Positions 36,312 to 43,872 of a DNA stretch of 64,000 nucleotides are shown in pieces. Positions within the stretch are counted from its first letter, which is position 1. Every line of letters starts with the position of its first letter. The notes beneath the pieces were generated by a model. That model had not been told where the DNA came from. It ran no database searches and saw only the letters and a list, made by a program, of their open reading frames with translations. Origin of the DNA: Bryobacterales bacterium (GTDB taxonomy: Bacteria > Acidobacteriota > Terriglobia > Bryobacterales > Bryobacteraceae); NCBI GenBank assembly GCA_003164035.1, contig PLRS01000050.1, positions 1-64,000 on the forward strand, read 5' to 3'. The position numbers and the translations under genes are program-made.

Positions 36312-37309
36312 GCATGGACAAGAAACGATGGGCCGAAATCGCGGCGCGATTCGCCGGCCTCCGCCTGCTGGTGGTGGGCGACCTGATGCTGGACGAGTTC
36401 ATCTGGGGGAAAGTGTCGCGAATCTCGCCGGAGGCTCCCGTGCCGGTGGTGGACGTGACTTCGGAATCCTACTATCCGGGAGGAGCGGCCAACGTGGCGC
36501 GCAACCTGCGCGAATTCACCAGCCACGTGGCCGTGCTGGGGGCGGCCGGCCAGGATGCGGCCGGCGCCAGGCTGGTCTCGCTGCTCGCCGAATCCGGCAT
36601 GGATACGGCCGGGGTGATGCGGCACCAGGGCTATTCCACTATCGTCAAGACGCGCATCATCGCCCGCCATCAGCAGGTAGTGCGGGTGGATCGCGATTGC
36701 CGCATCCCGACTGAAGGGCCGCGGCTGGAGCGCGCCATCGAGTTTGTGGATCGCGCCGCCGGCGAGGTGGATGGGATCGTGGTGTCGGATTACAACAAGG
36801 GTTTCGTGACCCAAGCCCTGGCGGATCGGGTTCTGGCGGCGGCACGGCGTCACGGCAAGGTTCTGACGGTCGACCCGCATCCGCGGACGGCTGTCGAATG
36901 GAAAGGCGCCACGGCGATAAAACCGAACCGGAGCGAGGCGTTCCACGCCGCCGGCCTGCCGCCGTCCGAGCCGGTCGAGCCGGCCGAGCGCGACCTGGCC
37001 TTGCTCGAAGCCGGTAATCGCCTGCTGGAACGCTGGCAGCCGCAAAACCTGGTGGTGACGCTGGGAGAACAGGGCATGATGCTGTTTCGCGCCGGCGAGC
37101 CGTGCTACCACGTGCCCGCGTGCGCGCAGGATGTATTCGACGTCTCCGGGGCCGGCGATACGGCGATTGCCCTGTTCACGCTGGGTTTGTGCGCCGGCGC
37201 CGACGCGCATGAAACGGCCGAGCTGGCCAACCTGGCGAGCGGAATCGTGGTAGGAAAGCTCGGTACGGCGACGGTGAACCGAGCAGAGCTGGAAGCAGCG
37301 CTGGGGTAG
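36308..37309 (+). CDS. rfaE1: D-glycero-beta-D-manno-heptose-7-phosphate kinase (RfaE1 domain)
   Basis: A 333-residue PfkB-type kinase equivalent to the N-terminal half of HldE. It shows LRLLVVGDLMLDEFIWGKVS, RISPEAPVPVVDV, YYPGGAANVARNL and the C-terminal FDVSGAGDTAIALFTLGLCA with the catalytic Asp. It phosphorylates heptose-7-phosphate at C1 for ADP-heptose and LPS core synthesis. The adenylyltransferase half is not fused and not in the window. It overlaps the TIGR03790 gene, an arrangement that says little about function. Confidence 0.93.
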   Translation: MSMDKKRWAEIAARFAGLRLLVVGDLMLDEFIWGKVSRISPEAPVPVVDVTSESYYPGGAANVARNLREFTSHVAVLGAAGQDAAGARLVSLLAESGMDTAGVMRHQGYSTIVKTRIIARHQQVVRVDRDCRIPTEGPRLERAIEFVDRAAGEVDGIVVSDYNKGFVTQALADRVLAAARRHGKVLTVDPHPRTAVEWKGATAIKPNRSEAFHAAGLPPSEPVEPAERDLALLEAGNRLLERWQPQNLVVTLGEQGMMLFRAGEPCYHVPACAQDVFDVSGAGDTAIALFTLGLCAGADAHETAELANLASGIVVGKLGTATVNRAELEAALG

Positions 37310-37318
37310 AGGGCTGGG

Positions 37319-37413
37319 GCTTGCGGCACTGCGTGGTGTTCGTGCCGGTCCGATACGGCAGCGATCCAGACGTTGACGTCGGGAAGGCAGACGGCGTCAG
37401 CCGAGGATGTCAT
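37319..37413 (-). pseudogene. VapC-type PIN toxin, 5' fragment
   Basis: The ATG at 37413-37411 overlaps the stop of the ribbon-helix-helix antitoxin, and the frame reads VCLPDVNVWIAAVSDRHEHH, the first PIN strand and following helix with the first catalytic Asp. Similarity ends after about 32 residues, ten bases before the heptose kinase stop codon on the opposite strand; further reading runs antisense to that gene. The toxin has lost all downstream catalytic residues. Confidence 0.8.
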
Positions 37414-37630
37414 CTATCTGAGCGTTCGTTAGCGAATGCAACGACCCTGGGCGGCTCGACCGGATGAGCGGCAATGACACACGCCCCTTGACCTCAGCGG
37501 GCGTTGGTCCGTGTTCGATCTCCTTGTTGATTGCCTCGAGGATTACAGCTTGTATGCTCAAGCTCCGCTGCTCGGCACGGGCCTGCAGGATTTGGAATAC
37601 CGGCTCGGGTAGCTTGATCGTTGCCCTCAT
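37397..37630 (-). CDS. Ribbon-helix-helix antitoxin (VapB-like)
   Basis: A 77-residue protein from ATG 37630-37628. It begins MRATIKLPEPVFQILQARAE, a beta strand plus helix of the CopG/Arc class, continues QRSLSIQAVILEAINKEIEH and ends in a Leu/Arg/Ser-rich toxin-binding tail (SLHSLTNAQIDDILG). The antitoxin looks intact while its PIN partner is truncated, so it is now probably an orphan. A 163-bp palindromic element lies 40 bases upstream of its start, on the side where its promoter should be. Confidence 0.85.
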   Translation of the reverse strand: MRATIKLPEPVFQILQARAEQRSLSIQAVILEAINKEIEHGPTPAEVKGRVSLPLIRSSRPGSLHSLTNAQIDDILG

Positions 37631-37670
37631 GTCCAATAGTGTCGCATGGCCGATCTGGCTTCGGGGACTG

Positions 37671-37833
37671 GGGTGCTTAACCGATTTGGGGGAGTTAGTT
37701 CCCGGCAACCGCTCCCTGACGGTCGCGGCTCGGTAAGTGACTGCAAACACGCCGTGTCCGTAACCGAGCCGCGACCGTGAGGGAGCGGTTGCCGCGCCTG
37801 AACTGCGAAATCCCTAGATCGGTTAGGCACCCC
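37671..37833. repeat. GCAACCGC hairpin repeat, copy 3, with outer inverted ends
   Basis: A complete composite element. Outer ends gggtgcttaaccgat (37671) and atcggttaggcaccc (to 37833) are inverted with one mismatch. The inner hairpin arms (37703-37734 and 37763-37794) carry the ctccctgacggtcgcggctc core with a G-G mismatch. The asymmetric loop (taagtgactgcaaacacgcc) is shared with 63543. The remaining sequence to 38056 shows no gene. Confidence 0.9.
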
Positions 37834-38056: not shown

Positions 38057-39490
38057 ATGCCTCAGCAGCCAACCGCGGGCGCGCAATTCAAGACCTGGCT
38101 GTTAATCCACTCGGGTCCGCTGGCAGGGACGCGCATTCCGATTTCCGAGGGCACTACGCGGGTGGGCCGCGGACCGGAAAACGACGTGGTCATCAGTGGC
38201 GCCGATACCGCGATGGTGTCGCTGAACCACCTGGAGATCCATAAAGACGGCGCGTCGTTTCGTCTGCGCGATATGGGTAGCACCAACGGAACCCTGCTGA
38301 ACGGCGAGCTCGTCGAAGAAGCCGAAGTCGCTCTACCGGCGACCCTCCAACTCGGCAACCTGGGACCGGAGCTGGCGCTGGTGCTGGAGGAGGCGCCGGT
38401 GTCGGAGCTGGACCGCACCATCGAGATCCTGGCCGATGCCGTGCCGCGGTCACGACCGCCGTCCACGGCTGCCACCGCGCATCAGGGGTTGTTCGCGGCC
38501 GTCACTCGCGCGCGCCGGTTGCGGAGACACGGAATCGGCGGCGAGACCCTCACCATCATGCGGGACGTCATCGATAAGGCGCTCGATCGCAATCATCGGC
38601 GGCTGCGCGTCGTCAGCTATGTTCTGACAGCAGCGCTGGTTACAGTGACCGGACTCGGCATCTGGAGGATTACCGCGCTCAACCGGCAGAAGCACGAGAT
38701 CGACAGTCACATCCAACAGTTGGAAGCGGACTTGCAAAAAGCCGACAGCGGCGCCGACGTCGACAACTTATTGTCCCGGCTGGACAATTACCAGAATCTC
38801 GGCGAGGCACTGCAGCAGAGCCTGCTCTACCGGATCGGACCGCACGAGGAGGGCGCCTTCGTCACCCGGGAGATGCGGGCCGTTATGACGGATCTCGGGG
38901 CCGAGGTCTATAGCATTCCGCCGGAGTTCATGGACCGGGTGAAACACTATATCGCCGACGACGAGGGGCCGAATCGCGCCCTCATCGAACGGGCTTTCCG
39001 GGACGGTGGCGCGCAACTCCAGACCATGCGCCGCATCCTGACGGAAGAAAACCTGCCGCCAGATCTGGCATATGTTCCGATCGTCGAATCGGCGCTCGAA
39101 AAGCGGCAGACCAGTGCGGCGGGCGCGGCAGGGCCGTGGCAGATGACCGTCGTCACCGCCCGCGCCTATGGGCTGCGCGTGGATAGCCAAGCGGATGAAC
39201 GCGAAGACCGGGTCAAATCGACGGTTGCCGCCGCGAAATATCTGCGTGACCTGATCTTGGATTTCGGCACCGGAAGCTCGGTCATGCTGGCGCTAGCGGC
39301 CTACAACAGCGGCGCGGCCGCGGTGAAACAGGCCGTTGTGCGCAACGTAAGCGACCCCATCAAACAGCGCAATTTCTGGTATCTGTATCGGAGGAAGGCG
39401 CTCCCGCTGGAGACCCGGGAATACGTGCCGAAAGTATTCGCCGCCATCCTGATCGGACGGGCGCCCGAGCAGTTCGGATTCTCCCAGTAG
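38057..39490 (+). CDS. FHA-transmembrane-lytic transglycosylase fusion
   Basis: A 477-residue protein. Residues about 12-112 form an FHA domain (RVGRGPENDVVIS with Arg36, NHLEIHKDG, DMGSTNGTLLNGE), the phosphothreonine-peptide reader, although the usual SxxH Ser is replaced by Leu-Asn before His58. A membrane helix spans about 184-204, a short coiled coil 206-245, and an SLT-type transglycosylase domain 285-470 with the catalytic Glu344 (YVPIVESALEKR), AAGAAGPWQMT and LALAAYNSGAAAVKQAV. The FHA part should be cytosolic and the transglycosylase periplasmic, linking phosphorylation to peptidoglycan cleavage. No Ser/Thr kinase is adjacent. Confidence 0.9.
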   Translation: MPQQPTAGAQFKTWLLIHSGPLAGTRIPISEGTTRVGRGPENDVVISGADTAMVSLNHLEIHKDGASFRLRDMGSTNGTLLNGELVEEAEVALPATLQLGNLGPELALVLEEAPVSELDRTIEILADAVPRSRPPSTAATAHQGLFAAVTRARRLRRHGIGGETLTIMRDVIDKALDRNHRRLRVVSYVLTAALVTVTGLGIWRITALNRQKHEIDSHIQQLEADLQKADSGADVDNLLSRLDNYQNLGEALQQSLLYRIGPHEEGAFVTREMRAVMTDLGAEVYSIPPEFMDRVKHYIADDEGPNRALIERAFRDGGAQLQTMRRILTEENLPPDLAYVPIVESALEKRQTSAAGAAGPWQMTVVTARAYGLRVDSQADEREDRVKSTVAAAKYLRDLILDFGTGSSVMLALAAYNSGAAAVKQAVVRNVSDPIKQRNFWYLYRRKALPLETREYVPKVFAAILIGRAPEQFGFSQ

Positions 39491-43311: not shown

Positions 43312-43872
43312 CTATCGCTTGGTATCGGCCCCGGCAGCTACCGGAGTGGGAGCAGCCGCGGCGGCCTGGGCCTGGGGTTTGGGTGCGGACTTTGCAATCT
43401 CGGGCTTCACGATGTCGATGCTGCCCTTAAAATAGGCGCCATCTTCGATGACGATGCGCGCGGTGCGAATATCGCCCACCAGGCGGGCGTCTTTGCGAAT
43501 CTCCATCTTGTCGGCGGCCTCGACATTGCCCTGAATCGTACCCAGGACGACCACCTCGCGGGCTTTCACGGTGGCGTGCAAGGTGCCATTTGGCCCGATG
43601 GTCAGCTTATGTTCCAGCGCCTCCACCGTGCCTTCCAGGTCGCCATCCACGAACAAGTCCTCCTTGCTGTGGATCTGGCCGACGATCTTGACGGCTTTTC
43701 CAATGGTGGCGGTGCCACCGACTTTGCTATCCATTTCCATGCGTCCCACTGGTATTCCGGACACGGCTGTCGCCTCCTTTTTGGGTTGGGTTGGGGCCTG
43801 CGCCTGCGGCGCGGGCGTCACCGGAGGAGAGAAGGACTGCGGTTGCTCCTCGTCCCGGCGCTTGTTCCACAT
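43312..43872 (-). CDS. Bactofilin (polymer-forming cytoskeletal protein)
   Basis: A 186-residue protein with an unstructured Pro/Gln/Ala N-terminus (about 1-50), the right-handed beta-helical bactofilin core starting at TIGKAVKIVGQIHSKEDLFV and including DGDLEGTVEALEHKLTIGPN and VEAADKMEIRKDARLVGDIR, and a C-terminal Ala/Pro tail. Bactofilins polymerise without nucleotides into membrane-associated filaments for shape, stalk or motility functions. It is transcribed with the downstream methyltransferase-like gene. Confidence 0.95.
   Translation of the reverse strand: MWNKRRDEEQPQSFSPPVTPAPQAQAPTQPKKEATAVSGIPVGRMEMDSKVGGTATIGKAVKIVGQIHSKEDLFVDGDLEGTVEALEHKLTIGPNGTLHATVKAREVVVLGTIQGNVEAADKMEIRKDARLVGDIRTARIVIEDGAYFKGSIDIVKPEIAKSAPKPQAQAAAAAPTPVAAGADTKR

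Follow-up and report, generated by a model that had tools for sequence, protein, structure and literature searches.

How lytic transglycosylases, which are potentially lethal to the cell, are controlled from the inside is a largely open question, and few kinase outputs have been described in the Acidobacteriota, a phylum with many Hanks kinases. A gene in the window, the stretch of 64,000 nucleotides analysed here from the genome of a soil bacterium of the Bryobacterales, brings both matters together, since it was originally predicted to join an FHA domain, a membrane helix, a coiled coil and an SLT domain in one chain. It raises the question of whether such a protein is real, whether its FHA domain can read phosphothreonine, and whether that reading could reach an enzyme on the other side of the membrane.

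Domain Order and Predicted Topology

Profile searches, the AlphaFold model and fold comparison agree on the single-chain order that had been proposed (Table 1). The model, built on 33 sequences with a mean pLDDT of 83.8, comprises an FHA beta-sandwich (residues 11-112), a long helix (163-228), a further helix (232-253) and a helical domain (267-473). The FHA domain and the membrane helix are connected by a flexible linker, whose pLDDT falls below 50 at residues 116-124 and 128-140, indicating a floppy segment. Hydropathy along the 477 residues contains only one peak as high as 1.82 (185-203), and five Lys/Arg residues lie just N-terminal of the membrane helix, in an Arg-rich flank, against two on its C-terminal side. 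The positive-inside rule is a common basis for assigning membrane topology, and because the basic residues are concentrated N-terminally, an N-inside, C-outside orientation is predicted. The FHA domain should accordingly be cytosolic and the transglycosylase periplasmic, making this a bitopic inner-membrane protein. The single hydrophobic segment and its Arg-rich N-terminal flank agree with the topology of the original prediction.

Table 1. Features of the FHA-lytic transglycosylase gene, with positions in the window
Feature	Coordinates	Strand	Basis
Whole gene, FHA-TM-lytic transglycosylase, 477 aa	38057..39490, stop included	+	ORF, Pfam, PDB search, AlphaFold, fold comparison
FHA domain (predicted cytosolic), residues 11-112	38087..38392	+	PF00498; GarA 6i2r Z 17.3, DgcB 6hbz Z 16.4
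R38 of GR motif, FHA phosphothreonine pocket	38168..38170	+	nearly invariant
S55-L-N-H58, SxxH motif	38219..38230	+	aligns with VSRRH of GarA
S75-T-N77-G-T79 loop, NG motif of FHA pocket	38279..38293	+	family alignment
L118-D-R-T121-I-E-I124 linker motif; T121, candidate kinase site	38408..38428	+	23/23 FHA-intact subfamily A; pLDDT <50 at 116-124
E163-T164-L-T-I-M-R169, second conserved Thr before membrane helix	38543..38563	+	T164, R169 23/23 in FHA-intact subfamily A
Single transmembrane helix (predicted), about residues 185-205	38609..38671	+	hydropathy peak 1.82 at 185-203
Helical/coiled-coil stalk (predicted periplasmic), about residues 206-253	38672..38815	+	model helices 163-228 and 232-253
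MltD-like lytic transglycosylase domain, residues 267-475	38855..39481	+	Pfam, NCBIfam, PDB search, fold comparison
Catalytic Glu344 (VES)	39086..39088	+	aligned with IES of P. aeruginosa MltD; invariant 33/33

The FHA Domain and Its Phosphothreonine Pocket

The identity of the N-terminal domain is well founded. Pfam assigns FHA (PF00498, E 4.9e-13, residues 34-91) well above the curated cut-off, the related model PF16697 (Yop-YscD_cpl) also matches the protein (E 9.3e-13), and a PDB sequence search with the N-terminal part returns GarA (6i2q, E 7.5e-11). Residues 12-110 of the AlphaFold model superpose on GarA (6i2r) in VIA-align with Z 17.3 over 94 residues at 1.2 Å. The NCBIfam models for OdhI and FhaB match in part, with 50.1 of 200 and 49.6 of 125 bits, short of the full models.

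The phosphothreonine pocket of FHA domains carries the signature GR, SxxH and NG (PMC1262709), and this signature is complete in the protein (G37-R38, S55xxH58, N77-G78). Across 33 members from both subfamilies described below, G37 and H58 are invariant, and R38, S55, S75, N77 and G78 are each present in at least 90%. As R38, the Ser of SxxH and N77 are all in place, canonical phosphothreonine binding is expected. The conserved Arg had been recognised before, placed at residue 36 instead of 38; the supposed absence of the Ser of SxxH was a misreading, since V54-S55-L-N-H58 aligns with VSRRH of GarA, and the concern that phosphopeptide binding might be altered falls away with all three motifs present and the pocket conserved across the family.

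The Lytic Transglycosylase Domain

The C-terminal part matches SLT (PF01464, E 3.4e-18, residues 331-432) well above the curated cut-off and finds P. aeruginosa MltD in the PDB sequence search (8rhe, E 7e-21). In the AlphaFold model, residues 275-477 superpose on MltD (8rhi) with Z 19.0 over 187 residues at 2.6 Å (VIA-align), and the MltD active-site motifs are, like the catalytic Glu, invariant across the aligned family members. The fold, E344 and the predicted topology together sustain the claim of a periplasmic SLT domain with its catalytic Glu. By every feature computable here, the protein combines a true FHA domain with a true MltD-type SLT domain. It is neither MltD proper nor OdhI/GarA: the MltD equivalog NF008050 of NCBIfam matches in part (E 1.4e-26, 92.9 bits against a cut-off of 508), and a Pfam search of the protein up to E = 1 returned no LysM and nothing beyond FHA, Yop-YscD_cpl and SLT.

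Distribution of the Family

Dozens of genomes share the FHA-TM-SLT order, conserved at 23-61% identity, and every one of the 33 aligned family members matches both FHA and SLT. A chance or mis-assembled fusion was rejected, because the domain order recurs in many genomes and in two subfamilies. The search across genomes proposed with the original prediction shows the architecture recurring sporadically across Acidobacteriota, in two separate subfamilies that a fully supported branch divides in the tree of transglycosylase domains. Of 200 genomes sampled from the family of the window's genome, about 18 encode subfamily A (37-61% identity), to which the window's protein belongs; it also turns up outside that family, both within the order (f89) and in a small number of other families of the phylum (f10, f68, f29). 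Subfamily B is 23-31% identical to the window's protein and shares its domain order and intact FHA pocket; 23 of 200 family genomes encode it, as do four further genomes sampled in the phylum (f59, f47, f28). The window's genome contains no second copy, its next relative (L002, a 594-aa ORF) matching over the transglycosylase part only. In a peptide-pattern scan of genome contigs, which diverged forms would escape, full-length matches all came from Acidobacteriota.

Two homologous loci depart from the common layout. At L035:4396-5859 (the same gene as L053), the FHA and transglycosylase halves lie in one frame with one stop codon near residue 251, which is either a metagenome sequencing error or the mark of a broken or split gene. 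In genome G125, from a different family of the phylum, one gene (L125:847-2466, plus strand, identical with L179:6347-7966) encodes a subfamily B relative with a Trans_reg_C winged-helix DNA-binding head (PF00486, 1.8e-16) on a TM-stalk-SLT unit of the subfamily B kind (SLT 1.8e-12), with the ES motif kept.

Neither a description of an FHA-lytic transglycosylase fusion nor a paper treating 'FHA domain' and 'SLT domain' together was found in the searched literature, which covered few subscription papers; within that coverage, the earlier statement that direct FHA-SLT coupling is not a described system stands. FHA-TM-LT is a real, conserved and apparently undescribed architecture in Acidobacteriota, with known parts in a combination not found in that literature.

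Gene Neighbourhood and the Link to Kinases

No conserved gene neighbourhood or partner gene emerged, either from the first 12 loci or from 54 loci covered over up to 7 kb to either side, and the neighbours common to L155-L166 stem from one group of close relatives. A promoter and terminator scan stayed at chance level. In the window, a gene for a bactofilin, a kind of protein able to organise wall hydrolases, is located 3.8 kb away from FHA-LT (43312-43872, minus strand; PF04519, 7.7e-26). Two short overlapping ORFs (37105-37750, minus strand) separate the FHA-LT gene from a PfkB-family (RfaE-like) kinase gene; they look toxin-antitoxin-like by eye and have no Pfam match. Assignment as a YscD/PrgH ring protein of a type III secretion system (T3SS) was rejected, given that the C-terminal part is a lytic transglycosylase and that ten neighbouring ORFs yielded no T3SS match.

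The most direct kinase association occurs at L126 (genome G008), where 3 bases separate the TGA stop of the FHA-LT gene from the GTG (6 bases from an ATG) of a gene for a 704-residue protein (L126:8501-10615, plus strand) with a Pkinase match of 1.3e-56 and one membrane helix by eye. The two are probably a translationally coupled pair of an FHA-LT protein and a transmembrane Hanks kinase, the only such pair among the 54 loci. At L153 (1575-2549 and 2574-4091, plus strand), a CsgG-family gene and then a Hanks kinase gene come shortly after a subfamily B gene in the same orientation, so that the kinase is the second gene downstream, and at L167 a close kinase gene lies upstream. A kinase is nearby in 7 of the 54 loci, which by our estimate is about chance in kinase-rich genomes, and enrichment beside the gene was rejected; the L126 operon hints directly at a kinase link, but for a single lineage and not as a rule.

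The window's genome has 30 Pkinase matches, 29 of them above the cut-off and some representing pieces of one ORF, together with nine FHA matches; the C60 ORF alone appears in both its SLT and its FHA lists. In nine other genomes, Hanks-kinase matches number 20-115. Since every examined genome has many such kinases, their co-occurrence with FHA-LT says little: of the association that the original prediction had put up for checking, the presence of kinases holds throughout, and enrichment near the gene does not. The idea that FHA loss accompanies kinase loss was likewise rejected, because genomes with decayed FHA domains have 31-86 kinase matches.

A Candidate Phosphorylation Site in the Linker

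About eight residues behind the FHA sandwich, in a linker otherwise variable in length and sequence, T121 is present in all 23 subfamily A members with an intact FHA pocket and in none of the five distinct members whose FHA domain is decayed or missing. Its best-conserved linker neighbour, L118, reaches 16/23, and the motif varies widely around the Thr (LNQTILA, LDKTVVF, PERTVIL, PEQTIHL). Position +3 is occupied in 22 of the 23 motifs by a hydrophobic residue no smaller than Ala; in DgcB, the FHA domain accommodates a Val at +3 of the protein's own phosphorylated tail (PMC6733907).

The five exceptions fall on two branches of the LT-domain tree, where FHA and Thr were lost together. In f68, L005 and L006 have GR changed to GS or GT and NG lost; they keep the frame of the motif (IADHVEL, VAEAVVI) with the Thr replaced by H or A, while their FHA-intact relatives L117 and L118 retain the equivalent Thr. 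In f29, L009 has a decayed FHA remnant, and L044 and L007 have no recognisable FHA domain. A frameshift hiding the domain in L007/L043 and L044 was rejected, since tblastn of the upstream sequence found no FHA remnant there. In all five, the TM-stalk-transglycosylase part is intact where the FHA head has decayed or gone.

Loss of T121 along with the FHA domain is the pattern expected if the domain reads this residue. It is suggestive only, because two losses underlie it: the co-loss test comprises 1-2 phylogenetically independent pairs, far below significance, and as the whole FHA-linker region has decayed in the f29 members, specific loss of the Thr is seen in f68 alone. Immediately after its FHA domain, subfamily B lacks a fixed Thr, so the T121 model applies there only if the invariant Thr of HTMM[IV]R substitutes. 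This motif (HTMMIR in the B reference, with T162 and R166 invariant) is the counterpart of the T164 segment of subfamily A. In both subfamilies, all FHA-intact members carry the T164-type Thr, but it persists in the FHA-decayed L005-L007, for which reason it is more likely structural, or a separate site of its own.

Proposed Mechanism and Alternative Explanations

Domain order, both folds, the intact pocket, the catalytic Glu, the conservation of the unit, the T121 pattern and one kinase operon are the observations on which a mechanism can be built; by analogy, they suggest a switch of the GarA/OdhI/DgcB kind. Among the cell's numerous Hanks-type Ser/Thr kinases, one would phosphorylate T121 in the flexible linker, and the FHA pocket (R38, S55, N77) would then bind pT121, whether on its own chain or on a partner's, as happens in GarA, OdhI and DgcB. 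Such binding could make the long helix, which starts at residue 163 and crosses the membrane into the stalk, pair or pack differently, so that the MltD-like domain may be turned on or off, in either direction, or placed near other phosphorylated proteins. We give this kinase-driven switch, acting through the membrane helix on the transglycosylase or positioning it, a probability of roughly 0.5. The narrower form, in which phosphorylated T121 is captured by the FHA domain of the same protein and the helix gates the enzyme, with the TM-stalk-LT part serving as a modular platform on which Acidobacteriota mount varied cytosolic heads, FHA in two subfamilies and a winged-helix DNA-binding domain in another, is more tentative and falls clearly short of even odds.

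A canonical FHA pocket would also suit a localisation tether, in which the domain binds phosphothreonine on another protein of the cytosol or membrane, such as a kinase or a component of the divisome or elongasome, and recruits an otherwise unregulated transglycosylase. FHA recruitment in wall synthesis is known from FhaA and the intracellular domain of Rv3910 (3oun, matched in the fold search), and tethering fits both subfamily B, with no linker Thr, and the retention of the transglycosylase after FHA loss (L005-L007, L009, L044). It gives no account, however, of why the linker of the protein itself has an invariant Thr that vanishes with the FHA pocket, and no conserved partner gene lies nearby in either set of loci; we hold it to be the main rival, though rather unlikely. 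Signalling might instead run from the outside in, with the periplasmic LT-like domain binding or cutting peptidoglycan as a sensor and altering what the FHA domain presents to kinases. This gains weight from L125/L179, where a winged-helix head replaces FHA on the TM-stalk-LT unit, because that layout is the one of ToxR/CadC-type receptors, whose outer domain is the sensor. Nevertheless, neither the catalytic Glu nor the MltD active-site motifs vary, as in a working enzyme, and members without FHA retain the enzyme, which makes outside-in sensing improbable.

The remaining reading would deny phospho-control altogether and take the FHA domain as vestigial, or as a mere folding or dimerisation element like the cytoplasmic domains of YscD and PrgH. 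The match to PF16697 and the members with degenerate or no FHA point that way. YscD-type domains, however, are known to lack the phosphothreonine-binding residues, whereas GR, SxxH and NG are conserved here in most members of both subfamilies over a large divergence, and we regard this reading as highly improbable. Under the kinase-driven switch, control of wall cutting by intracellular kinases through FHA-LT is plausible, and with a reader inside, T121 as candidate phosphosite and an enzyme outside in one protein, it is directly testable.

Comparison with Known Systems

The catalytic domain resembles that of P. aeruginosa MltD (8rhe/8rhf/8rhi), with 35% identity over 187 aligned residues and the same catalytic Glu. 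MltD is a LysM-bearing enzyme and, in E. coli, a lipoprotein; its C-terminal LysM domains and lack of a cytosolic domain set it apart from FHA-LT, in which no LysM was found and which carries a TM anchor and an FHA domain. The FHA fold and pocket are those of the actinobacterial switches GarA and OdhI (Z 16-17, 30-34% identity), which likewise have a Thr of their own nearby as ligand, a role only proposed for FHA-LT. These are, however, small and soluble, carry the Thr ahead of the FHA domain and control 2-oxoglutarate metabolism, whereas in FHA-LT the Thr lies behind it and the enzyme acts on the wall. In M. tuberculosis, MviN (Rv3910) and FhaA (3oun) also connect Hanks-kinase phosphorylation to the cell-wall machinery through an FHA domain, unlike FHA-LT as two proteins, with a flippase-like partner and no lytic enzyme.

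Functionally closest are DgcB and MltG of E. faecalis. In DgcB of Bdellovibrio (FHA-GGDEF), the FHA domain reads the protein's own phosphorylated tail and so gates the enzyme (PMC6733907); FHA-LT shares the fusion of FHA to an enzyme, the FHA fold (Z 16.4) and the hydrophobic +3 residue, the read-out of its own Thr being a proposal. DgcB differs in being a diguanylate cyclase with an N-terminal tail, all of its parts cytosolic and no membrane crossing. MltG is, like FHA-LT, a transmembrane lytic transglycosylase with a cytosolic part, in which a kinase-substrate Thr has been demonstrated: IreK phosphorylates it on cytosolic T20 (PMC12369325). Its catalytic domain is of the YceG type and its cytosolic segment is disordered; that report (PMC12369325) makes no mention of an FHA domain. 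The MltG precedent establishes that kinases do act on lytic transglycosylases, there without FHA.
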